From the NCBI RefSeq assembly GCF_019112525.1, contig NZ_CP077800.1:2108001-2172000 (forward strand): DNA of 64,000 bases, given 5' to 3'. Source of the stretch: Modestobacter sp. L9-4. GTDB taxonomy: Bacteria; Actinomycetota; Actinomycetes; Mycobacteriales; Geodermatophilaceae. Of the stretch, positions 35,638-45,791 are shown piece after piece. The notes under the pieces are model-generated. The model worked only from the letters and a program-made list of their open reading frames with translations, did no database searches and was not told the origin of the DNA. The position numbers and the translations under genes were made by a program. The first letter of the stretch is position 1. Each line of letters begins with the position of its first letter.

Positions 35638-35780
35638 CGGCCCCGCTGCAGGCGCTCGCCGCGAGCTCGCGCAGGGGGGGCGGCGGGGTCCTCGTCACCG
35701 CCGTCCGCTTCGCCTGACGGCCCCGCTGCAGGGGCCCGCCGCGAGCTCGCGGGCGGTGGGGCAGCGGGTCCTCCGTCAGG
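35621..35780. repeat. 80-bp imperfect tandem duplication of gene end and terminator
   Basis: Positions 35621-35700 and 35701-35780 align with a period of 80. The first 30 bases are identical and include the last codons and TGA of the LOV phosphatase gene. The rest includes a conserved GCGAGCTCGC core and a GTCCTC...GTCA end, with scattered changes. The second copy thus carries a non-functional relic of the gene end and runs into the stop codon of the flavin reductase gene. Each unit contains a GC-rich inverted repeat centred on GAGCTC that can act as a terminator in both directions. Confidence 0.85.
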
Positions 35781-36297
35781 CGCCCGGGTCGAGCAGCGCG
35801 GACCGGACGCCGTAGCCGCCGCGGTGGAACAGCAGCGGGGAGCGCGCGGCGTCGGCGCCCAGGCCGAGGACCCGGGCCACCACGATCGTGTGGTCGCCGC
35901 CCTCGTACTCGGCCCACAGCTCGCCGTCGATCCAGGCCACGACCCCGTCGAGCACCGGTGAGCCCTGGGCGCTGGGTGCCCAGCCCACCCCGGCGAACTT
36001 GTCGGTGCCGGAGCGGGCGAACTGCCCGGACAGCGCCTGCTGGTCGTCGGCCAGCACGTTGACGCAGAACCGGCCGGCCCGGCGCAGCAGTGGCCAGGTG
36101 GTCGAGGTGCGCGCGGGGGCGAAGGTGACCAGCGGCGGGTCCAGCGACAGCGAGCTGAACGACTGGCAGGTGAACCCGACCGGCCCGTCGGCGCCGATCG
36201 CCGTCACCACGGTCACGCCGGAGGCGAAGTGCCCGAGCACGTCGCGCATCACCCGGGGGTCGATCACCTGGGCGGGGACGTCCGGTTCGGCGGTCAC
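35776..36297 (-). CDS. Flavin reductase-like FMN-binding protein
   Basis: This 173-residue protein of the flavin reductase (HpaC/RutF/HsaB-like) domain family has FASGVTVVTAIGADGPVGFTCQSFSSLSLDPPLVTF near the N-terminus, RFCVNVLADDQQALSGQFA, DHTIVVARVLGL and a C-terminal LLFHRGGYG. Members use NAD(P)H to reduce FMN or FAD for a two-component monooxygenase. No monooxygenase gene is adjacent. The start is a GTG at 36297. It is 69 bases downstream of the TenA-like gene on the same strand and may be the last gene of that cluster. Confidence 0.9.
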   Translation of the reverse strand: MTAEPDVPAQVIDPRVMRDVLGHFASGVTVVTAIGADGPVGFTCQSFSSLSLDPPLVTFAPARTSTTWPLLRRAGRFCVNVLADDQQALSGQFARSGTDKFAGVGWAPSAQGSPVLDGVVAWIDGELWAEYEGGDHTIVVARVLGLGADAARSPLLFHRGGYGVRSALLDPGA

Positions 36298-36366
36298 CCG
36301 CTGATCCCACCACGCGGCCCGGGCTCCCGCGCCGCCGGCCGCCGGGTGCCGGCCGGCACCCGGCGG

Positions 36367-36999
36367 TCAGGCGTGCACCGCGTCGTGGAAGGCGATCTCC
36401 GCCTCGAGGACGGCGGTGAACCAGCGGTCCAGGTCGGCGTCGTCCACGGCACCGGGATCCAGGACGTCGACGTCGCGCCGCAGTGCGTCGACCTGGCCCA
36501 GGAAGACCGGCTCGGCGTGCAGCTGCACCCACGCCTGCAGGTCCGGGTCGCGGGGCGCCGGCTGCGCCGCCGCAGCGGTGCACCAGCGCGCGTACATGGT
36601 CTCGGCCGCGAGCATCCCGGTCAGCGCGGCCGGGCGCCCGCCGTCGGCGACCTGCTGCAGGACGACGTCCGAGAGCACCTGGGCCCGCGCGAGCGCGGCC
36701 TCCCCGCCGGTCGCCGGGTGCCTCTCCCGCACCCCGGCGAAGTAGTCCCGCTGCTCGGTGACGAGGTTGGTCAGCGAGCGGGCGGAGGGCAGCAGGTCCG
36801 ACCAGGTGGTCGACTCCCAGACCACCCGGCCGAGCACCCGGGAGGCGGTCAGCACGAACGCCTCCTCCACCAGCAGGTACCGGGCGAGGTCGCCGGCGCC
36901 GAGCGTGCCGTCGGTGGCCTCGCGGACGAACCGGATGCCGCAGGCCCGGTCCAGCAGCGCGGCGTTCCGGTCGACCAGGGCCGCGGACCGGGAGGTCAC
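36367..36999 (-). CDS. TenA-like (thiaminase II fold) protein
   Basis: This 210-residue all-helical protein matches the TenA/THI-4 family: FVREATDGTLGAGDLARYLLVEEAFVL at the N-terminus, MLAAETMYARWC in the middle, and LEAEIAFHDAVHA at the C-terminus with the family's terminal Glu. TenA enzymes hydrolyse aminopyrimidine precursors in thiamin salvage. The usual active-site Cys of TenA-C is replaced by AAETMY with Glu, so it resembles the TenA-E type. The GTG start overlaps the stop of the GATase1-like gene (GTGA). Its presence inside a sugar-type catabolic operon is unusual; the substrate is probably not classical thiamin. Confidence 0.8.
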   Translation of the reverse strand: MTSRSAALVDRNAALLDRACGIRFVREATDGTLGAGDLARYLLVEEAFVLTASRVLGRVVWESTTWSDLLPSARSLTNLVTEQRDYFAGVRERHPATGGEAALARAQVLSDVVLQQVADGGRPAALTGMLAAETMYARWCTAAAAQPAPRDPDLQAWVQLHAEPVFLGQVDALRRDVDVLDPGAVDDADLDRWFTAVLEAEIAFHDAVHA

Positions 37000-37745
37000 C
37001 CGCGCACCAGCCAGCGCACCAGCCCGTCGAACAGGTCGGCGTAGCCCGGCCACTCCTCGCAGAAGGCCGGCGGTGCCCAGTGCGGGGAGCAGTCGGACGT
37101 GAACGCCCCGGCCCGCCCGCTGCCGAAGGTGCCCAGCGCGACCAACGGGTCCGCGCCCACCAGGACCGGCACCTCGGCCCCGGCCTTGGCGACCACCCGG
37201 TTGTAGCCCAGCAGCGCGGGCCACTGCGCCCCGGCGCCACCCAGGGCCGCGTGGTCCGGGTCGGCGACGGTCGGCAGCACGCCCGCGGGGGCCTCCACCC
37301 GGTCGTCCTCGGCGAGCATCTCCACCGGCAGCACGTCGGCCAGCACCGTCTGCCGGAACGCCGCCCGGGCCTGGAACCCGCTGAAGGACAGGTAGCCGCC
37401 GATCATGAGCAGCGCACCGCCGTCGCCGACCCAGGTCCGCAGCGCGGCCAGCCGGTCCTCCCCGGGCTGGAAGCGCTCGAACACCTGCGGGGACAGCTGG
37501 ATCGAGTTGGCGCCGATGTCGGAGAGGACGACGAGGTCGTAGGCCGACAGCGCGGCGGCGTCCCCGGGGAACTGCGTGGGCACCAGGTGCGCCGGCAGGT
37601 GGACGACGTCGTGCCCGCGGGCGGTGAGCGCGTCGCGCAGCGGCCCGACGCCCTCGACGTAGGAGTGGACGGAGAACTCGTCCACTCCCTTCACGTGGGT
37701 GGAGGTGGTCATCCAGCTCTCGCCGGCGATCAGGATGCGGGCCAC
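36996..37745 (-). CDS. GATase1-like (COG5426-type) putative glutamine amidotransferase
   Basis: This 249-residue protein has a flavodoxin-like amidotransferase fold: ARILIAGESW at the start, GHDVVHLPAHLVPTQFP, YDLVVLSDIGANSIQLSP, LRTWVGDGGALLMIGGYLSFSGFQA and FGSGRAGAFTSDCSPHWAP near the end. It resembles the uncharacterised class often called putative glutamine amidotransferase. I see no Cys at the usual nucleophile elbow after GGY (it reads GGYLSF), so amidotransferase activity is doubtful and a binding or hydrolase role is possible. It ends in a GTGA overlap with the TenA-like gene and follows the phosphotriesterase-like gene by one base. Confidence 0.75.
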   Translation of the reverse strand: MARILIAGESWMTTSTHVKGVDEFSVHSYVEGVGPLRDALTARGHDVVHLPAHLVPTQFPGDAAALSAYDLVVLSDIGANSIQLSPQVFERFQPGEDRLAALRTWVGDGGALLMIGGYLSFSGFQARAAFRQTVLADVLPVEMLAEDDRVEAPAGVLPTVADPDHAALGGAGAQWPALLGYNRVVAKAGAEVPVLVGADPLVALGTFGSGRAGAFTSDCSPHWAPPAFCEEWPGYADLFDGLVRWLVRG

Positions 37746-37746
37746 G

Positions 37747-38781
37747 TCAGAGTCCTCTCGAGGCGCGCTCGAACAGCGCGCGCGGGTTGGTGGTCATCAG
37801 GTCGGTCACCGCGTCCCCGTCGAGCCCGCTGCGGCGCAGCCGGTCGGCGAAGACGACGGGGACGTAGGCGAGCCCGTTGCCGCCGAAGCGGCTGAGCATC
37901 GCCTTGAGGAACAGGTCGTGGGAGAGCAGCAGCCGGTCGCCGTGACCGGCCGCGACCAGGGCGGCGACGGCGGCCGCCGTCTCGGCCGGTGCGGGGGACT
38001 GGCCCTCGCCGGGGTAGTCGAACGGCATGCCGACCATGTCGAACTCGCAGACGACGCCCCGCTCGGCGACGGACCGCTGGTAGTCCCGGTCGGCTCCGGA
38101 GGGGTCCATGTGGCAGAGCACGACGGCCCCGGGGTCGACCCCCTCCTCGTCCACCACGAGGTCCAGCACCTCGTGCGCGCGGCGCTGCCAGCCGGGCAGG
38201 TGCACGAACAGCGGCACCCCGACCTCCCGCTGGGCCCGGCAGGCGGCCCGCAGCGCCCGGCGCTCGTCGTCGGTGAACGCGGGGGAGACCCCGATCTCCC
38301 CGATGACACCGGGCCGCAGCTCGTGCGCCGGGTCGAACTCGGCGACCAGCTCGGCCGCGAGCTGGTCGGCCGTCGACGTGGCCACCTGCGGCGGGTGGGT
38401 GGCCTGCAGGTACCAGCCCGACCCCATCACCACCTGGACGCCGGTGGCCAGGGACAGCTCGCGGAGCCGCTCGGGGTCACGGCCGATGCCCGGCGGGGTC
38501 AGGTCGACGACGGTCCGCCCGCCGACGGCGGCGAACGTGCGCAGGTCCGCCGCCATCGCCTCGGCGTCGTCCAGCCGGCAGTTGTCCGCGTTCTCGTAGG
38601 GGTGGTCGGACAGCAGCCAGGCCAGGTCCGCCGACACGGGGGCGTCCAGCAGTGCCCGCAGCCGCGGGTCCGGCGCCGGGCGGAAGGCGACCGCGTTGTC
38701 GTTGACCAGGTGCTCGTGCGGGAGCACCAGTCCCAGGGCCGCCGCGTCGACGTCCCCGGTGACGGTGCGGACGGCGGTCAC
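37747..38781 (-). CDS. Phosphotriesterase-family metal-dependent hydrolase
   Basis: This 344-residue amidohydrolase-superfamily TIM barrel has the complete binuclear metal site: HEH in LVLPHEHLVND, Glu in GEIGVSP (where classical phosphotriesterase has a carboxylated Lys; E. coli Php also has Glu), His in FVHLPGW, His in LCHMDPSG and Asp in LLSHDLFLKAML. Natural substrates of such proteins are lactones or phosphorylated sugars rather than organophosphates. The start is a GTG overlapping the permease stop. Its place behind a ribose-type importer suggests hydrolysis of an imported sugar lactone or ester, which is inference. Confidence 0.9.
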   Translation of the reverse strand: MTAVRTVTGDVDAAALGLVLPHEHLVNDNAVAFRPAPDPRLRALLDAPVSADLAWLLSDHPYENADNCRLDDAEAMAADLRTFAAVGGRTVVDLTPPGIGRDPERLRELSLATGVQVVMGSGWYLQATHPPQVATSTADQLAAELVAEFDPAHELRPGVIGEIGVSPAFTDDERRALRAACRAQREVGVPLFVHLPGWQRRAHEVLDLVVDEEGVDPGAVVLCHMDPSGADRDYQRSVAERGVVCEFDMVGMPFDYPGEGQSPAPAETAAAVAALVAAGHGDRLLLSHDLFLKAMLSRFGGNGLAYVPVVFADRLRRSGLDGDAVTDLMTTNPRALFERASRGL

Positions 38782-39809
38782 CGGCCGGAGGTGAGCCGTC
38801 GGAGGAACCAGCCGAGGTCCTTGCCGCGCAGGTTGATCCAGACCACCAGCACCAGCACCGCGCCGGTGATGATCGGGGTCAGGTACGGGCTGACCGACAG
38901 CAGGGTGAGCCCGTTGGCGATGACCTGCGTGAGCAGGGCCCCGATCAGCGTGCCGACGATGGTGCCGCGACCGCCGAGCAGGCTGGTGCCGCCGAGCACG
39001 ACCGCGGCGATGACGGTCAGCTCGAAGCCCTGCGCGCTGTTGGCCGACCCCGAGCCCAGGCGGGCGGCGATGAGCAGCCCGGCCAGGCCTGCGGCCAGCC
39101 CGGAGAAGCCGAGCGCGCACATCGTGACCAGCTTGACGTTCACCCCGGCCCGGCGGACGGACTCCTGGGCCGACCCGATGCCGATCACGTACTGACCGAA
39201 GCGGGTGGCGTGCAGCAGCACGAAGCCCAGCACCACGACGACCAGCGCGATCCAGGCCGTCGCCGAGAACCCCAGGAAGCGCGCCGTGCCGAGCTTCGCC
39301 ACGAGGGTGTAGGAGGCGATCGGCACCGAGAAGCCCTCGGTCTGGAACAGCGCGATGCCGCGGACCACCGACAGCGTCGCCAGCGTGACGATGAAGGCCG
39401 GGATGCCCTGGTAGGCGGTGAACCAGCCGTTGACCAGGCCCCAGCCCAGGCCCATGAGCAGCGCGGCCACGATCACCAGCGAGGAGTCCCAGCCCGCCAC
39501 CAGCAGCTGCGCGGAGATCGCCGCCGTGAAGGCCACGATCGAGCCGACCGACAGGTCGATCTGCCCGGCGGTGATGACGAAGGTCATCGCCACGGCGACG
39601 ATGAGCACCGGCCCCACCTGGGTGGCCAGGTTGGACAGGTTGGCGAAGGTCAGGAAGTTCGGGTCGGCGACGGCGAAGAACACGAAGACGGCCAGGGTGA
39701 CCCCGGCCATCACCAGGGTGGCCTTGTTGGTGCGCTGCCAGAACGACTGCTGCTGGGACAGCCGGGCCACGGTGGGCTCGGGCGCGGTGGTGGTCTCGGT
39801 GGTGGTCAT
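38778..39809 (-). CDS. Ribose/monosaccharide-type ABC transporter permease
   Basis: This 343-residue permease of the BPD_transp_2 (RbsC) family has about eight to ten membrane helices. The family motifs TFVITAGQIDLSVGSIVAF, NGWFTAYQGIPAFIVTLATL and IAAVVLGGTSLLGGRGTIVGTLIGAL are clear. It starts at ATG 39809, overlapping the ATPase stop (ATGA), and ends in a GTGA overlap with the hydrolase gene. Together with the preceding ATPase and binding protein it forms a complete importer; the substrate is probably a pentose-like sugar, sugar derivative or nucleoside. Confidence 0.93.
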   Translation of the reverse strand: MTTTETTTAPEPTVARLSQQQSFWQRTNKATLVMAGVTLAVFVFFAVADPNFLTFANLSNLATQVGPVLIVAVAMTFVITAGQIDLSVGSIVAFTAAISAQLLVAGWDSSLVIVAALLMGLGWGLVNGWFTAYQGIPAFIVTLATLSVVRGIALFQTEGFSVPIASYTLVAKLGTARFLGFSATAWIALVVVVLGFVLLHATRFGQYVIGIGSAQESVRRAGVNVKLVTMCALGFSGLAAGLAGLLIAARLGSGSANSAQGFELTVIAAVVLGGTSLLGGRGTIVGTLIGALLTQVIANGLTLLSVSPYLTPIITGAVLVLVVWINLRGKDLGWFLRRLTSGR

Positions 39810-40582
39810 GCCCGGGTCCCCTCGGTACGCGGCTGCGCAGGCGTTCGCGTGATGAGGCCGACCAGGGTCTCGATGTCCAGGTCGGCGATGGCCGCGTCGT
39901 CGACGCTGCGCCCCTCGTACATGACGGTGATCCGGTCGCACACCCGGAACAGGTCCTGCAGCCGGTGGGTGATCAGGATGACCCCGACCCCCTGGGCTGC
40001 GACCTCGCCGATGAGCCGGAGCACCGACTCCACCTCGGCGACCGCCAGGGCCGCCGTCGGCTCGTCGAGGATGAGCACGTCCGGGGCGAAGGACACGGCC
40101 CGGGCGATGGCCACGGTCTGCCGCTGCCCGCCGGACAGCGTGCCGATCTCCTGGTGGGTGCTCGTCACCTTGACGTGCAGGTCGGCCAGGATCCGGGCTG
40201 CGTCCCGGTGCATCCGGCCCCGGTCGATGAACGGCCCCCGCTTGGGCTCGCGGCCGAGGAAGAGGTTGCTGGCCACGTCCAGGGTGTCGCACAGCGCGAG
40301 GTCCTGGTAGACGATGCCGATCTTCTCCGCCTGGGCGTCCGCTGGGTTGGCGAAGCGCACCGGGCTGCCGTGCACCCGGATCTCGCCGTCGTCGTGCTGC
40401 ACCGCTCCGGCCAGCACCTTCATCAGGGTCGACTTGCCGGCGCCGTTGTCGCCGACCAGGCCGAGGACCTCGCCGCGCCGGAGGGTCAGGTCCACCCCCT
40501 GCAGCGACTTCACCGGCCCGTAGGACTTGGTGATCCCGGCGAGTTCGACGAGGAGGTCGCTGCTCGTGTCGGGCAGGCTCAC
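39806..40582 (-). CDS. Sugar ABC transporter ATP-binding protein (single domain)
   Basis: This 258-residue ATPase has Walker A GDNGAGKST, Q-loop VYQDLALCDTLDV, signature LSGGQRQTVAIARAV, Walker B VLILDEPTAAL and switch His ILITHRLQD. It resembles the N-terminal half of RbsA-type proteins. RbsA itself carries two such domains, whereas this one is a single domain, as in the FrcA-like subgroup, and should dimerise. The GTG start lies 3 bases after the binding-protein stop. Confidence 0.93.
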   Translation of the reverse strand: MSLPDTSSDLLVELAGITKSYGPVKSLQGVDLTLRRGEVLGLVGDNGAGKSTLMKVLAGAVQHDDGEIRVHGSPVRFANPADAQAEKIGIVYQDLALCDTLDVASNLFLGREPKRGPFIDRGRMHRDAARILADLHVKVTSTHQEIGTLSGGQRQTVAIARAVSFAPDVLILDEPTAALAVAEVESVLRLIGEVAAQGVGVILITHRLQDLFRVCDRITVMYEGRSVDDAAIADLDIETLVGLITRTPAQPRTEGTRA

Positions 40583-40585
40583 CGC

Positions 40586-41608
40586 TCAGCCCGCCAGGTA
40601 GAACGTGAAGTCGTCCACGTTGTCCGGGGTGACGATCTCCGTGGGCACCGGCTGGTCGCGCTCGACCGGGTTGCCGCAGGAGAGGTCGATCGCCGCGGCC
40701 ATCGCCCGGTAGCCGAACTCGAAGGTCTGCTGCTGCACGACACCGGTGATCCAGCCGTCCCGCAGCCCCTGGACGGCCGGGTCGGAGAGGTCCCAGCCGA
40801 CGACGTCGACGCGGTCCTGGGCGCCCTGGCCGCGGACGGCGGCCGCCAGGCCGATCAGCGCCGGCTCACCGGTGGCGTAGACGTACTCCAGGCCCGGGTT
40901 GCCGGTGAGCAGGTTCTCCGCCGCCGACTGGGCGGTCTCCTGGACGTTCTTGCCGTCGACGACCGTGCCGACGGTCATGCCGCCACCGGTGACGGTGTCC
41001 TCGAAGCCCTTCTGGCGCTCCAGCTGGATGGTCGAGTTCAGGGCCCCGACGATGCCGACCTCGCCCTGTCCGCCGGACTGCTCGAGCAGCGCCTTGCCCA
41101 TGGCCGCACCCCCGTCGGCGTTGGCCGTGCCGACCTGGGCCTTCACCGCCGGGTCGTCGACGATGGCGTCCACGGCGACCACCGGGATGCCGGCGGCGTC
41201 GGCGGCCTGCACCGAGGGCTTGATGCCCTCGGTGTCGATGGCGTCGACGATGATCGCGTCCACGCCGCTGGCGACCAGGGTGTCGATCGCGTTGGCCTGG
41301 GTCACCGAGTCGTCGTTGCCGCTGATGATCTGCAGCTGGACGCCCTGGTCGTCGGCCATCGCCTGCGCGGCCCGGTTGATCTGGTTGAAGAACAGCGCCT
41401 GCAGGTTGATCGTGACCAGCCCGACCTTCATCGGGCCGTCGGTGGGCGTGCAGCCGACCGGCTGGGCCGACGGCTCGGGGAGCGAGCCGGACGCCGAGCT
41501 GCCCGAGGCGGGCGCCGCGGCCGGGCCGGCGGACGGGGCCGGGGCGCTGTCGCAGGCGGCGAGCGCGAACAGGCAGGCGCCTGCGGCGAGGGCGAGGGAG
41601 CGGTTCAT
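40586..41608 (-). CDS. Sugar-binding lipoprotein of ribose-type ABC importer
   Basis: This 340-residue periplasmic-binding-protein type 1 has a lipoprotein signal (SLALAAGACLFALAAC, cleavage before Cys). A Pro/Ala/Ser-rich tether of about 40 residues leads to the RbsB-like domain: KVGLVTINLQALFFNQINRAAQ, GVDAIIVDAIDTEGIKPSVQAADAAGIPVVAVDA, and VVGWDLSDPAVQGLRDGWITGVV. The ATG start is at 41608. Upstream there are 120 bases to the kinase gene, mostly tandem 17-bp repeats, so this may be a point of internal regulation in the operon. Confidence 0.93.
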   Translation of the reverse strand: MNRSLALAAGACLFALAACDSAPAPSAGPAAAPASGSSASGSLPEPSAQPVGCTPTDGPMKVGLVTINLQALFFNQINRAAQAMADDQGVQLQIISGNDDSVTQANAIDTLVASGVDAIIVDAIDTEGIKPSVQAADAAGIPVVAVDAIVDDPAVKAQVGTANADGGAAMGKALLEQSGGQGEVGIVGALNSTIQLERQKGFEDTVTGGGMTVGTVVDGKNVQETAQSAAENLLTGNPGLEYVYATGEPALIGLAAAVRGQGAQDRVDVVGWDLSDPAVQGLRDGWITGVVQQQTFEFGYRAMAAAIDLSCGNPVERDQPVPTEIVTPDNVDDFTFYLAG

Positions 41609-41666
41609 GGGTCCTCCAGGTTGCGGTGCCGGGTCGGTGCGGATCGCGGTGCGGGGGAGCGGTGGT

Positions 41667-41727
41667 GCGGCGGGACGGGTGGAGCGGCGGGACGGGTGCT
41701 GCGGCGGGACGGGTGGAGCGGCGGGAG
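41667..41727. repeat. 17-bp tandem repeat, 3.6 copies
   Basis: The unit GCGGCGGGACGGGTG plus two bases (GA or CT) is present three times in full (41667-41683, 41684-41700, 41701-41717), with a fourth partial copy ending just at the stop codon of the kinase gene. It fills half of the leader of the sugar-binding protein gene. On the transcript it gives repeated CCCGTCCCGCCGC blocks. Confidence 0.9.
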
Positions 41728-41728
41728 G

Positions 41729-42622
41729 TCAGGCGGGCGGCGCGGGGACCGAGGGGCCACCCAGCGCGGCGTCGACGAGCGCGGGCGCGGGGGCGCCGCG
41801 GGCGCCCGGCACGGTGCAGGACAGGCTGGCGGCGATCCCGGCGCGGGTGGCCGCAGCCACGGGACCCGCCCCGCCGGCCACCCCGGCCAGGTAGGTGCCC
41901 GCGAAGCAGTCGCCGGCACCGGTGTCGTCGACGACGTCCACGGCCAGCGCGCTGCCCTGCGAGAACGACCCGTCGGCACCGTGCAGCGTCCAGCCGCGGG
42001 CTCCGTCGGTGACGACCAGCACGGTCCCGGCCGCGCGCGCCAGCTCCGCCCACCCGGTGGCCGGGACGCCCAGCTGCCCGGTGAGCCGGCCCCGTCCGAC
42101 GACGACGTGGTCGGCCAGCCGGACGGCCTCCAGCGCGGTCGCCGGGTCGTCGCAGCCGTCCAGGTCGACGGCGAGCGGGACACCGGGGCGCACGGCGGCG
42201 CCGAGCTCCGCGGCGCGGTAGCCGTCGAGGTAGAGCAGCCCGCCGCCGGCAGCGGCCAGCCGGTCGGCGACCGAGGAGACGTGAGCGCCACCCAGCGCGT
42301 CGTCCTCGCTGACCACCGACCGCCGGCCGGCGCCGTCGACCAGCACGATCGCGGTCGAGAGGAAGCCACCGCGGTCGGTCCAGCCGGTGTCCACCCCCTC
42401 GGTGGCGAGCTGCGCCAGGAACCGGTCGGACAGCGGGTCGTCGCCGACCACGCCGGCGAAGGCGACCGCCGCACCGGCCCGTGCGGCCGCGACGGCGGCG
42501 TTGGCCGCCATGCCGCCGGGCAGGTGCTCGACCGCGGTGGCGTGCACGCGCTCGTCGGGCTGCGGGAAGCGGGGCACCCGGCCGACCACGTCCAGGTTGG
42601 CGTACCCGCAGAAGACGATCAC
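41729..42622 (-). CDS. PfkB-family carbohydrate kinase
   Basis: This 297-residue ribokinase-family enzyme phosphorylates a sugar, nucleoside or similar alcohol with ATP. The N-terminal pattern is CGYANLDVVGRVPRFPQPDERVHA and GGMAANAAVAAARAGAAVAFAGVVGDD. The C-terminal PfkB signature VDDTGAGDCFAGTYLAG carries the catalytic Asp and the anion hole. The start is a GTG at 42622 overlapping the BtpA-like stop (GTGA). It lies between the BtpA-like barrel and the importer genes, so it probably phosphorylates the imported compound. Confidence 0.93.
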   Translation of the reverse strand: MIVFCGYANLDVVGRVPRFPQPDERVHATAVEHLPGGMAANAAVAAARAGAAVAFAGVVGDDPLSDRFLAQLATEGVDTGWTDRGGFLSTAIVLVDGAGRRSVVSEDDALGGAHVSSVADRLAAAGGGLLYLDGYRAAELGAAVRPGVPLAVDLDGCDDPATALEAVRLADHVVVGRGRLTGQLGVPATGWAELARAAGTVLVVTDGARGWTLHGADGSFSQGSALAVDVVDDTGAGDCFAGTYLAGVAGGAGPVAAATRAGIAASLSCTVPGARGAPAPALVDAALGGPSVPAPPA

Positions 42623-43464
42623 TTCCCGGCGGCCCGGGCCACGGCGCGCACCTTCTCCGCGTCCGCGCGGCCCCACCAGCGGCCGTTCTCCTTGGCCGAG
42701 GACGCCACGATCGCGCCGTCGCACTCCGCCAGCAGCGCGGCCACGTTGCCCGGGTCGATGCCGCTGCCGATGATCACCGGCAGCTGCGTGTGGTCCCGGA
42801 TCCCCACGACCTCCTCGACCGAGGTGGCGTGACCGGTGCGCGAGCCGGTGGCGATGAGCACGTCGGCGTCGAAGAACTCCGCGTCCTCGGTCTGCTCGGC
42901 GAGCGTCCGGTCGGCGACGATGGCGTGGGCACCGTGCTTGACGTGGACGTCGGCGAAGACCTTCACCGGGTCGGCTCCGATCTCGTGCCGGTACCGCGTC
43001 GTGCGGGCGGCCTGACCCTCGATGAACCCCTCGTTGGCCACGTAGGCGTTGGCCCACTGGTTGACCCGGACCCACCCGGCACCGGCGGCCCAGGCGGCGG
43101 CGACCGAGCAGGTGCCCGCGTTGGACAGCACGCTCACGCCGACCCGGGAGCCCAGCTCGGCGACCACCGCCGCGGTGATCACGCCCATCGAGGCCGCGAC
43201 CTCGTAGCCGTGCTCGCCGGGCTTGAGGAAGGGCAGGTCCCAGTGGTTCTCCACGATCACCGAGTCGAAGCCGTTGCCCACGTAGGTGGCCGACTCCTCC
43301 ACCGCGAAGCGGCAGATCTCGGCCACGGACTGCCCGCGGTAGGACGGGCTCCCGGGCAGCGCGGGCAGGTGCACGGCGCCGATGAGCGTCTTCTCCGTGG
43401 CGAAGAGCTCGGCCATGGCGGAGGGCTTGCGGGGGTACACACCCAGCGGAGCTGACACGTCCAC
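42619..43464 (-). CDS. BtpA/SgcQ-family TIM-barrel protein
   Basis: This protein of up to 281 residues belongs to the BtpA family (LIGAVHLPALPGSPSYRG; FDSVIVENHWDLPF; GWVRVNQWANAYVANEG; FADVHVKHGAHAI; VIIGSGIDPGNVAALL). BtpA was named for photosystem I biogenesis in cyanobacteria, but relatives such as SgcQ occur in sugar operons and are probably lyases or aldolases for sugar phosphates. The longest frame starts at GTG 43464, only 10 bases from a LacI-type operator. ATG 43416 (MAELFATEKTLIG) matches the usual family N-terminus better and may be the true start. It is the first gene of the operon. Confidence 0.88.
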   Translation of the reverse strand: MDVSAPLGVYPRKPSAMAELFATEKTLIGAVHLPALPGSPSYRGQSVAEICRFAVEESATYVGNGFDSVIVENHWDLPFLKPGEHGYEVAASMGVITAAVVAELGSRVGVSVLSNAGTCSVAAAWAAGAGWVRVNQWANAYVANEGFIEGQAARTTRYRHEIGADPVKVFADVHVKHGAHAIVADRTLAEQTEDAEFFDADVLIATGSRTGHATSVEEVVGIRDHTQLPVIIGSGIDPGNVAALLAECDGAIVASSAKENGRWWGRADAEKVRAVARAAGK

Positions 43465-43473
43465 ACCCGTTCA

Positions 43474-43487
43474 TGTAATCGATTGCA
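43474..43487. promoter_or_regulatory. LacI-family operator O1
   Basis: TGTAATCGATTGCA fits the LacI/PurR-type consensus TGNAANCGNTTNCA at every fixed position and is centred on the CG typical for this family. It lies immediately before the BtpA-like gene, where binding would block transcription of the catabolic operon. Confidence 0.8.
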
Positions 43488-43531
43488 AGACCTGTCGAAC
43501 GCTAGCGGGCCAGCCCCGGTGTCCGTCAAGA

Positions 43532-43545
43532 GGCAATCGTTTACA
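43532..43545. promoter_or_regulatory. LacI-family operator O2
   Basis: GGCAATCGTTTACA fits the same consensus except for the first base. Its centre is 58 bases from that of O1, between O1 and the divergent lacI-type gene. Two sites allow looping or separate control of the two directions. Confidence 0.75.
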
Positions 43546-43683
43546 TTCGTGTTTCCGGTGGTCAGCGCCTCGACATCCCGCGGACATCCGTCCGGTGGAG
43601 GCTCGCGCCCGCGCCCGGCCCACCCGGACCAGACAGGATGGGGACGTGTCCCGCCGGGACCGACGACGGGGAGGACGGTGAGC

Positions 43684-44682
43684 GTGGCGAGGGTGACCAT
43701 CCGGGACGTCGCCGAGCGGGCGCAGGTCTCCACGGCCACCGTCTCGCGGGCGCTGTCCGGCGCCAAGCCGGTGTCGCCGGCGGTCGCCGAGCAGGTCCGC
43801 CGCGCCGCCGACGAGCTGGGCTACGCCGGCAACGGCATCGCCAGCGCGCTACGGCGCAGCCGGACCGACACGGTCGGCATGGTGGTCCCCAGCATCACCA
43901 ACCCGTTCTTCACCGGACTGGTCGAGCACGTCGAGCACGCACTCCAGGAGGCAGGCCGCCAGCTCTTCCTCTGCTCGTCCCGGTCCGACCCCGGGCTGGA
44001 GGCCCAGCGGCTGCGCAGCCTGGTGGCCCGGCAGGTGGACGGGATCATCATCAGCCCCGCCCACGGCAGCCTCAGCACCCCCGCCGTCCACCGGGCCGCG
44101 CAGGAGCTGCCCCTGGTGCAGGTCGACCGGTACGTCACCGGCGTCGACAGCGACTGGGTGGGGGTGGACGACGACGCGGCGCTGGGCCTGGTCGCGGAGC
44201 ACCTGTCCGCCCGCGGGGTCCGGTCGGCCGCCTTCGTCAGCTCACGGCTCACCAACTCCTCGACGGAGCTCCGGGTCGCCGGCTTCCGCCGGCACGCCGA
44301 CCGGCTGGGCATCGCCGTGACCGGGGTGCACCTCGGGGAGTACTCGATCGCCTGGGGCCGGCAGGCCGCCGAGCAGCTGCTCCGCGAGGGCCCGCGACCG
44401 GACGCGGTGGTCTGCGCCGACGACCTCATCGCCTTCGGCGTCCTGCAGGCGTGCACCGCTGCCGGCGTCCGGGTGCCCGGGGACGTGCTCGTCACCGGCT
44501 TCGACGACGTCCCCTTCGCCGCGCTGTCCAACCCCCCGCTGACCACCGTGCACCAGCCGCAGCGTGAGATCGCCGCCGAGGCGGTGCGCCTGCTGTCGCG
44601 TGTGCTGGGCGACGAGCACGCCGCGCCGTCCCGGACGGCGCTGACCCCCTCGCTCACCGTGCGGGAGAGCACCGGGCGCTGA
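43684..44682 (+). CDS. LacI-family repressor of the adjacent catabolic operon
   Basis: This 332-residue regulator has an N-terminal LacI helix-turn-helix (VTIRDVAERAQVSTATVSRALSGAKPVSPAVAEQVRRAADELGY), the hinge (IASALRRSRTDTVGMVVP) and a periplasmic-binding-like effector domain (GFDDVPFAALSNPPLTTVHQP). I chose GTG 43684, which has GGAGG nine bases before it; GTG 43678 is too close to it. The gene diverges from the BtpA-kinase-importer operon, and two operators of the LacI class lie between them. It should repress the operon and itself until it binds a sugar-like inducer. Confidence 0.93.
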   Translation: MARVTIRDVAERAQVSTATVSRALSGAKPVSPAVAEQVRRAADELGYAGNGIASALRRSRTDTVGMVVPSITNPFFTGLVEHVEHALQEAGRQLFLCSSRSDPGLEAQRLRSLVARQVDGIIISPAHGSLSTPAVHRAAQELPLVQVDRYVTGVDSDWVGVDDDAALGLVAEHLSARGVRSAAFVSSRLTNSSTELRVAGFRRHADRLGIAVTGVHLGEYSIAWGRQAAEQLLREGPRPDAVVCADDLIAFGVLQACTAAGVRVPGDVLVTGFDDVPFAALSNPPLTTVHQPQREIAAEAVRLLSRVLGDEHAAPSRTALTPSLTVRESTGR

Positions 44683-44702: not shown

Positions 44703-45791
44703 TCAGGCGGGCCAGCGGCGGAGCACCTCGGTGAAGGCGGCGGCGGCCTGCTGCAGCTCCGCGACCTCGACGTGCTCGTCGACCGCGTGCATCGCCGACG
44801 GCGTCCCGGGCCCCCAGACGACGACCGGGGCCCGGCCGACCACCGGCTGCAGGACCGACGCGTCGGTGAAGTAGGTGGCCGGGGCGGACTCGACCGGGAC
44901 GGGGAGCCCGGCGACCCACGGGTCGCCGGCGGGCGTGCGCACCGAGGGCAGGTCCACGAGGACGTCGACCCCCGCGACCTCCGGCTGCGCCCGCCACCAG
45001 GCGAGCAGGGCCGCGCCGTCCCCGACGGTCCGGTGGTCGACCACCACCTCCGCGGAGTCGGGCACCACGTTCGGGACCGTGCCGCTGCGCATCACCCCGG
45101 GGTTCCACGTCTCCCGGCCGAGGAAGGGCTCCTCGGCCAGCGGGAGCACGCCGCCGGCCCGGCCCAGGACGGCGACGAGGTCCAGCAGCGCGTTGTGCCC
45201 CCGCTCCGGCGTGCTGCCGTGCGCCGCGCGGCCCTGGGCACGGACCGCCAGCCACAGGGCGCCGCGGTGGCCGAGCACCACCCGGTTGCCGGTCGCCTCG
45301 GGCACCACGACCGCGCCGACCTCGAGCTCGGACACGGCGGCAGCGGCGGCGGCGGCCCCGCGCGAGCCGATCTCCTCGTCGCTGGTGAGCAGCAGCGCCA
45401 CCGGCGTCCCGGCCGGGGCGGTGGCCAGCGCGGCGACCGCGGCGACCAGCCCGGCCTTCATGTCCGAGCCCCCACGCCCCCAGACCCGGCCGCCGTCCAG
45501 GTCGGCCCCGAAGGGGTCCCGCTGCCACGAGCCGGGGTCCGCGGCCGGCACGGTGTCGACGTGGCAGGCCAGCAGCAGCCGCGGCCGCCCCGGGTCCGTG
45601 GGTGAGGTGAGCAGGGTCCACGGCTGGTCCCGGTCGGTCCCGTCCCGGCGGTGCAGGTGGGGGGAGGCGGCGGTGAGCACGTCGGTGACGATGCCGAGCA
45701 CCTCCCGCTGCGGGCCGGCGTCCCCGGAGACGGTGGGCCGGCGCACCAGCTCGCGCACGAGGTCGACGACGTCGGTGGTGGGGGCGCTCAT
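44703..45791 (-). CDS. M20-family metallopeptidase/deacylase (ArgE/DapE-like)
   Basis: This 362-residue zinc hydrolase has the full ligand set: His in LLACHVDTVPA, bridging Asp in WGRGGSDMKAG, catalytic Glu-Glu in LLTSDEEIGS, Glu in VVVPEATGNRV and His near the end in SAMHAVDEHVEV. The dimerisation (lid) domain lies in the middle (LWLAVRAQGRAAHGSTPERGHNALLDLV). Substrates of close families are N-acyl amino acids such as acetylornithine or succinyl-diaminopimelate; which one applies here is unclear. It converges with the lacI-type gene and follows the MMPL gene after a palindromic spacer. Confidence 0.9.
   Translation of the reverse strand: MSAPTTDVVDLVRELVRRPTVSGDAGPQREVLGIVTDVLTAASPHLHRRDGTDRDQPWTLLTSPTDPGRPRLLLACHVDTVPAADPGSWQRDPFGADLDGGRVWGRGGSDMKAGLVAAVAALATAPAGTPVALLLTSDEEIGSRGAAAAAAAVSELEVGAVVVPEATGNRVVLGHRGALWLAVRAQGRAAHGSTPERGHNALLDLVAVLGRAGGVLPLAEEPFLGRETWNPGVMRSGTVPNVVPDSAEVVVDHRTVGDGAALLAWWRAQPEVAGVDVLVDLPSVRTPAGDPWVAGLPVPVESAPATYFTDASVLQPVVGRAPVVVWGPGTPSAMHAVDEHVEVAELQQAAAAFTEVLRRWPA

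Follow-up and report, generated by a model that had tools for sequence, protein, structure and literature searches.

A conserved gene cluster of Modestobacter sp. L9-4, apparently under local LacI control, with a proposed role in the catabolism of a non-canonical nucleoside

The breakdown of pseudouridine is carried out by PsuK and PsuG, of which the former, a PfkB-family kinase, phosphorylates pseudouridine and the latter, a glycosidase, then splits the base from ribose-5-phosphate. In Bacillus, base-degraded thiamin is salvaged by ThiXYZ, YlmB, and TenA. TenA proteins that lack the cysteine act on formylaminopyrimidine. BtpA (PF03437) and GATase1_like (PF07090) are widespread families for which, to our knowledge, no reaction has been described. 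A four-gene core of Salmonella, STM3547 (RikA)-STM3548-STM3549-STM3550, has been suggested as a possible pathway for a carbon source of unknown identity (PMC13432705, 2026). Here we describe a gene cluster in a 64-kb stretch of DNA (hereafter, the window; positions 2,108,001 to 2,172,000 of contig NZ_CP077800.1) of Modestobacter sp. L9-4, whose genome consists of one contig of 4.22 Mb (4,224,113 bases). The cluster encodes a BtpA/SgcQ-family protein, a PfkB-family kinase, a ribose-type importer, a phosphotriesterase (PTE)-family amidohydrolase, a GATase1_like protein (GAT), and a TenA-like protein beside a LacI-family regulator. From its gene content and the comparison with related loci we lean slightly toward a role in the LacI-controlled uptake and catabolism of an N-ribosylated pyrimidine-like compound, i.e., a non-canonical nucleoside.

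The GAT gene (36996-37745, minus strand; Pfam 287 bits) was used to find the cluster elsewhere. Sixty-seven loci were compared, comprising 28 of the 29 loci of an initial set (L037 scored <100 bits), 19 of 23 plasmid regions, and 20 of 24 further genome regions. Plasmid regions L077 and L079-L081 and the BtpA contexts L093-L096 were dropped for having no GAT match, and 22 short or duplicate loci stand outside the 67. Contig ends stop three loci before BtpA (L011, L014, L015) and one in the permease (L111). Near GAT we found PTE in 54 loci, a PfkB kinase in 59, the solute-binding protein (SBP) in 54, BtpA (42619-43464 in the window, minus strand) in 36, and a nucleoside hydrolase (IUNH) in 15; BtpA and the nucleoside hydrolase did not occur together in any locus (0/67). 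An M20 metallohydrolase was present in 37 loci, 23 of them with BtpA and 12 with nucleoside hydrolase. Whether GAT and TenA stay with the importer in other genomes, a check named in the initial annotation of this DNA as able to refute it, gave a mixed answer. GAT does so in most loci, together with PTE; TenA, found in 32 loci, accompanies BtpA (29/36) and never the nucleoside hydrolase (0/15), and is thus a branch-specific part rather than a member of the core.

The nucleoside-hydrolase branch was seen mainly in the class of G187, in which 15 of 296 sampled genomes had a close PF07090 protein; the regions of all but G681 were read. Thirteen of these 14 regions (L083, L085, L101-L111) contain the run importer-PTE-GAT-nucleoside hydrolase-ribokinase; LacI and M20 lie on the opposite strand in every contig that extends to them. 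The nucleoside hydrolase belongs to PF01156 (two were scanned, giving 332 and 340 bits) and is nearest to RihA, a pyrimidine-type enzyme, at 357.6 bits, below the cut-off of 433. In the fourteenth region (L112) it lies two genes from GAT on the same strand, and in L114, from a phylum sample, it is found on the opposite strand near GAT and the kinase. Judged by gene content and order, a nucleoside hydrolase and a kinase near ribokinase occupy the place that BtpA and a divergent kinase hold in the other branch. Because they stand there, the glycosylated N-heterocycle suggested earlier as the substrate gains independent support; for the amino-sugar, named as the other option, we found no evidence.

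The divergence of the kinase follows the same division. The window kinase (41729-42622, minus strand; Pfam 101 bits) carries the motif GGMAANAA and is far from ribokinase, with 95 bits to TIGR02152 against a cut-off of 299.65. None of the 28 kinases scored reaches this cut-off, and the 16 that stand beside BtpA (95-202 bits) do not overlap with the 12 others (227-296 bits; Mann-Whitney p 7e-8, a value that ignores relatedness). The latter are 11 kinases from loci without BtpA plus the second kinase of Arthrobacter L030, whose two kinases gave 109.5 and 249.3 bits; the scored set does not include L065, L077, or the majority of the actinobacterial loci. At E <= 0.01 the pseudouridine kinase model was absent among the matches of the window kinase.

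In the proposed pathway, the importer would bring in the riboside, the PfkB kinase would phosphorylate its 5′-hydroxyl, and BtpA, a barrel of the phosphate-binding type, would break the bond between phosphoribose and base to yield ribose-5-phosphate. The other branch would reverse this order, the nucleoside hydrolase splitting the riboside before ribokinase phosphorylates the ribose. The base would then be degraded by hydrolysis: PTE may open or deacylate it, M20 and TenA may cleave amide, formamide, or carbamoyl groups, and GATase1_like would contribute one further step of unspecified chemistry. In some rhizobia and their kin, a Zn-hydrolase of the allantoate-amidohydrolase/carbamoylase type may take the role of M20. 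No oxidoreductase gene is among the conserved genes of the clusters read, and the ring should therefore already be at a hydrolysable level, making dihydrouridine and hydantoin-, barbiturate-, or formamidopyrimidine-type ribosides candidate substrates. What leads us to infer that BtpA splits the riboside is the replacement pattern. A more specific version, which we hold possible but doubtful, is that the BtpA of this branch may be a new riboside-splitting enzyme that cleaves the base from a 5′-phosphorylated, non-canonical pyrimidine-type nucleoside made by the adjoining PfkB kinase, within a pathway that would dismantle modified or damaged nucleosides (e.g., dihydrouridine) by hydrolysis throughout and in which PF07090 would perform an undescribed step. 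The broader view of the initial annotation, that of one locally controlled catabolic or salvage unit in which importer and kinase deliver a phosphorylated compound to BtpA, is supported by these comparisons.

Several observations weigh against the proposed pathway. No probability can be put on the locus counts because the loci are related to one another and the plasmid regions were hand-picked; moreover, 13 of the 15 nucleoside-hydrolase loci come from one class, and the hydrolase is weaker in L112 and L114 (139 and 169 bits). Of the 12 Pseudomonadota kinases read next to BtpA, 11 retain the ribokinase-like motif GGKGxNQ, so the kinase argument is one of whole-protein scores. The structural model of BtpA is poor at positions 138-148 and 177-182, and its best structural matches score almost equally. 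A Frigoribacterium locus (L032:4718-11409) reads LacI-importer-PTE-GAT-TenA and has neither kinase nor BtpA, and Streptomyces L058 lacks the kinase. Of 20 BtpA genomes found, neighborhoods were read in five besides the window's own (G590 was left out); a BtpA gene with 52% identity (L093, G599) and, likewise, the distant BtpA genes of L094-L096 have no match to the window kinase, GAT, or PTE nearby. Other, distant BtpA genes stand beside FGGY kinases (L080, L081), which fits a general sugar-phosphate role.

This last point leads to a different substrate, a free or O-linked sugar (a pentose, furanose lactone, or Amadori-like compound), from which importer and kinase would give a sugar phosphate; BtpA would then act as an aldolase or isomerase and PTE as a lactonase, and the nucleoside hydrolase of other loci would be parallel in purpose. 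The importer, kinase, and LacI do come from sugar-type families, and a phospho-furanose lactonase model matches PTE weakly (56 bits, cut-off 630). In addition, the Monoglobus locus L061 has no PTE and an MBL-fold protein annotated as a lactonase, and on pTiChry5 a distant PF07090 gene has genes for fructoselysine kinase and hydantoinase/oxoprolinase as neighbors. A sugar pathway leaves unexplained, however, the same-strand run of nucleoside hydrolase and ribokinase with GAT in 13 loci, the mutual exclusion of BtpA and IUNH across the 67 loci, and the presence of TenA and of M20 enzymes of the amidase/carbamoylase type, and we consider it unlikely.

The cluster is real and conserved, with an order that recurs beyond chance in several actinobacterial genera. 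Searches by tblastn with the window proteins recovered the order M20-LacI-BtpA-PfkB-SBP-ATPase-permease-PTE-GAT-TenA in Modestobacter, Klenkia, Geodermatophilus, Blastococcus, and Rhodococcus/Rhodococcoides, and the identical run starting at LacI in Pseudonocardia and Amycolatopsis; the actinobacterium G615 (L092) repeats the whole M20-to-TenA order. The closest relatives of the window's PF07090 protein are those of Modestobacter and other Geodermatophilaceae. The spread is patchy: a TenA match occurs in 8 of 59 relatives searched, two of them weak, and of the 396 genomes in the phylum sample eight have a close GAT match. The carriers include bacteria from soil, bacteria associated with plants, and others. 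On annotated plasmid pRL9 of Rhizobium johnstonii 3841 the order is LacI-SBP-ATPase-permease-PTE-GAT-BtpA-TenA-kinase; Paracoccus and Ponticoccus plasmids have LacI-importer-PTE-GAT-kinase-BtpA-TenA, and a Pantoea plasmid has TenA-BtpA, kinase, SBP, LacI, and ATPase-permease-PTE-GAT-M20. Gene content varies, and TenA, BtpA, M20, PTE, and the kinase are each missing somewhere, as might be expected if two or more unrelated units had been joined by chance or by a shared promoter and formed no single pathway. Yet one set recurs in varied orders and orientations in Actinomycetota, Alpha-, and Gammaproteobacteria, which makes such a coincidence very improbable.

The limits of the cluster had initially been drawn at 35776 and 44682. 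The core genes lie within this range, but the comparison moves both ends. The M20 gene (44703-45791, minus strand), which is convergent with lacI and beyond that range, is conserved beside LacI, and its product is best matched by an ArgE/DapE deacylase model (155 bits, cut-off 218). In the nucleoside-hydrolase branch M20 follows lacI on the same strand, and for this reason we regard it as a member of the system. At the other end, an HsaB-like flavin reductase (35776-36297, minus strand; 204 bits, cut-off 230) occurs within 8 kb of GAT in 9 of the 67 loci, namely eight from Geodermatophilaceae, in which it lies at least 1 kb from TenA, and a weak match in L036. By these distributions, the flavin reductase is outside the conserved system and the M20 deacylase gene is inside it. 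The initial description had overlooked M20, the variant with a nucleoside hydrolase, and the Salmonella STM3547-3550 relatives; its observations were partly confirmed and its interpretation partly supported.

Open reading frames and Pfam matches confirmed the reported run of minus-strand genes with a divergent LacI: nine genes extend from BtpA, the first gene of the operon, to the flavin reductase, and lacI (43681-44682, plus strand; Pfam), which also adjoins the operon in related loci, is transcribed away from them. The importer consists of a ribose-type SBP (Peripla_BP_4; 40586-41608, Pfam 170 bits), a one-domain ABC ATPase (39806-40582), and a permease (BPD_transp_2; 38778-39809), the latter two assigned by profile matches and all three on the minus strand. 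Four-bp overlaps, said to join nearly all of the genes, are real but occur at four of the eight junctions; two others have gaps of 1 and 3 bp, and longer gaps separate PfkB from SBP (120 bp) and TenA from the flavin reductase (69 bp). A 17-bp GC-rich tandem repeat of 4.7 copies (41648-41726) fills most of the 120-bp gap.

The two matching operators of the initial annotation are present in the LacI-BtpA gap as operator-like palindromes, O1 (TGTAATCGATTGCA; 43474-43487) and O2 (GGCAATCGTTTACA; 43532-43545). They flank a predicted minus-strand promoter-like pair (43499-43529) composed of TTGACG (43529-43524) and TAGCGT (43504-43499), 19 bp apart, with O1 11 bp downstream of the -10-like element and O2 2 bp upstream of the -35-like element. 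The exact pattern GYAAWCGWTTRC, with no mismatches, has two sites in the 4,224,113 bases, both in this gap, and its reversed control has no site genome-wide. Among 19 intergenic regions examined, the window's own counted, 17 have two sites with <=4 mismatches to TGTAATCGATTACA; the exceptions are L032 with one site and L030 with none. Since GYAAWCGWTTRC fits nowhere else in the genome, the regulator looks local, and the cluster is apparently under local regulation.

The window BtpA scores above the curated cut-offs of its family (Pfam 208 bits, cut-off 30; TIGR00259 186 bits, cut-off 153) and has the predicted fold of a (beta/alpha)8 barrel of the phosphate-binding type. It stays below the cut-off of the photosystem I biogenesis BtpA equivalog (NF045918, 158 bits against 400). 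K258, D201, R133, and H32 of BtpA are invariant in 17/17 sequences. PTE (PF02126; 37747-38781, minus strand, Pfam 154 bits) has 3k2g and 3rhg (Pmi1525) as its nearest solved chains, and H22, H24, E162, H194, H224, and D289 are invariant in 11/11 aligned proteins; we take these HxH, Glu/Lys, His, His, and Asp positions to be ligands of a binuclear metal center. GATase1_like is homologous to Salmonella STM1381, the structure of which has been solved (3soz), and to 2gk3. It lacks the nucleophile Cys of class I glutamine amidotransferases; all 14 aligned PF07090 proteins have GGYxS at the presumed elbow position. For the SBP, the nearest solved chain is 5hsg (236 bits); the next reaches 85 bits, so that 5hsg may be a usable template when ligands are studied.

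The TenA-like protein (36367-36999, minus strand) has no Pfam match at E <= 1e-3 and was placed with TenA by profile search, AlphaFold2, and VIA-align. E45 and E201 lie at the Asp/Glu positions of TenA, and these residues, along with E133, H161, and H205, are invariant in 15/15 sequences. The absence of the TenA-C Cys noted earlier was borne out by the alignment, in which Ala132, likewise invariant in 15/15, occupies the active-site Cys position, and the TenA_C subfamily was thus rejected. A TenA fold and an ArgE/DapE-like M20 together in the window would also suit salvage of the thiamin pyrimidine, or of a glycosylated relative, in which the two would act as Bacillus TenA and YlmB and PfkB would be a hydroxymethylpyrimidine (HMP)-type kinase. 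We deem this improbable. TenA is absent from 15/15 IUNH loci and from the Salmonella-type cluster of Escherichia albertii, and, besides TenA, there is no thiamin gene among the annotated neighbors listed. The matches of the window kinase at E <= 0.01 include ribokinase models but none for an HMP kinase. An Rfam scan of the window gave no match and, hence, no thiamin pyrophosphate riboswitch.

Variant clusters were also recorded. The place after BtpA that TenA has in other clusters is taken by a "Zn-dependent hydrolase" in four records from Hyphomicrobiales (L059, L062, L063, L065); the one scanned (L059) is of the allantoate-amidohydrolase/carbamoylase type (TIGR01879, 383 bits, cut-off 204). 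A Sagittula stellata plasmid (L077:4111-11460) has a kinase-BtpA-hypothetical-hypothetical-BtpA-TenA run with genes for ureidoglycine aminohydrolase and allantoate-amidohydrolase-like proteins close by; the two hypothetical proteins of the run (246 and 109 aa) matched nothing in Pfam or NCBIfam at E <= 1e-3. The PF07090 gene of pTiChry5 (L070:9001-16581; 35% identity) adjoins hydantoinase/oxoprolinase, SIS, and fructoselysine 6-kinase genes, a neighborhood that possibly serves opine catabolism. In Monoglobus pectinilyticus (L061:5678-14540), PF07090 is accompanied by ribokinase, two LacI genes, a ribose-type importer, and the MBL-fold protein. Region L112:2274-9800 carries, on one strand, LacI, ribokinase, a probable transporter, the nucleoside hydrolase, a choloylglycine/penicillin-amidase-like hydrolase, a DMT transporter, and PF07090. 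On a Raoultella plasmid (L069:4402-10665), PF07090, an M24 peptidase, a nitrilase-family amidase, and another ABC importer stand under LacI. In region L113:4591-11305 a near-ribokinase (293 bits) accompanies PF07090 (59% identity), LacI, and a ribose-type importer, with no PTE, BtpA, or nucleoside hydrolase matches.

In the open-access literature searched we found no account of the enlarged gene set, of a nucleoside hydrolase as a replacement, of the divergence among the kinases, or of any concrete function for BtpA. If the proposed pathway is correct, it would add a further way of cutting phosphorylated ribosides and would show by what route soil- and plant-associated bacteria might exploit unusual nucleosides, e.g., from RNA turnover; BtpA, GATase1_like, and the Salmonella RikA locus would gain one shared, testable biochemical setting. 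Bacillus thiamin salvage resembles the window cluster in its TenA fold, ArgE/DapE-like amidohydrolase, and importer, but the window TenA is without the cysteine, the window importer is of the ribose type, and nothing in the Bacillus system corresponds to PTE, PF07090, BtpA, or LacI. Importer, LacI, and ribose salvage are shared with the nucleoside hydrolase-ribokinase route of the RihA/UriH type, whereas the window cluster is without a nucleoside hydrolase and the kinase would act first, followed by BtpA. This logic, in which a kinase acts and a partner then splits the product, is that of PsuK/PsuG, although BtpA is not PsuG. Salmonella STM3547-3550 shares with the window a PfkB kinase, a PF07090 protein, and a PTE-like protein but uses a DMT transporter in place of the ABC importer and, in the four-gene set, has no BtpA, TenA, or M20 (PMC13432705). 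An Escherichia albertii plasmid has the same arrangement, kinase-GAT-DMT-PTE; its RikA relative is weak on the pseudouridine kinase model (74 bits, cut-off 540) and near ribokinase (TIGR02152, 283 bits), in contrast to the 95 bits of the window kinase. The window cluster is a conserved catabolic unit that is related to the published cluster but is equipped with an ABC importer and a BtpA-kinase module.

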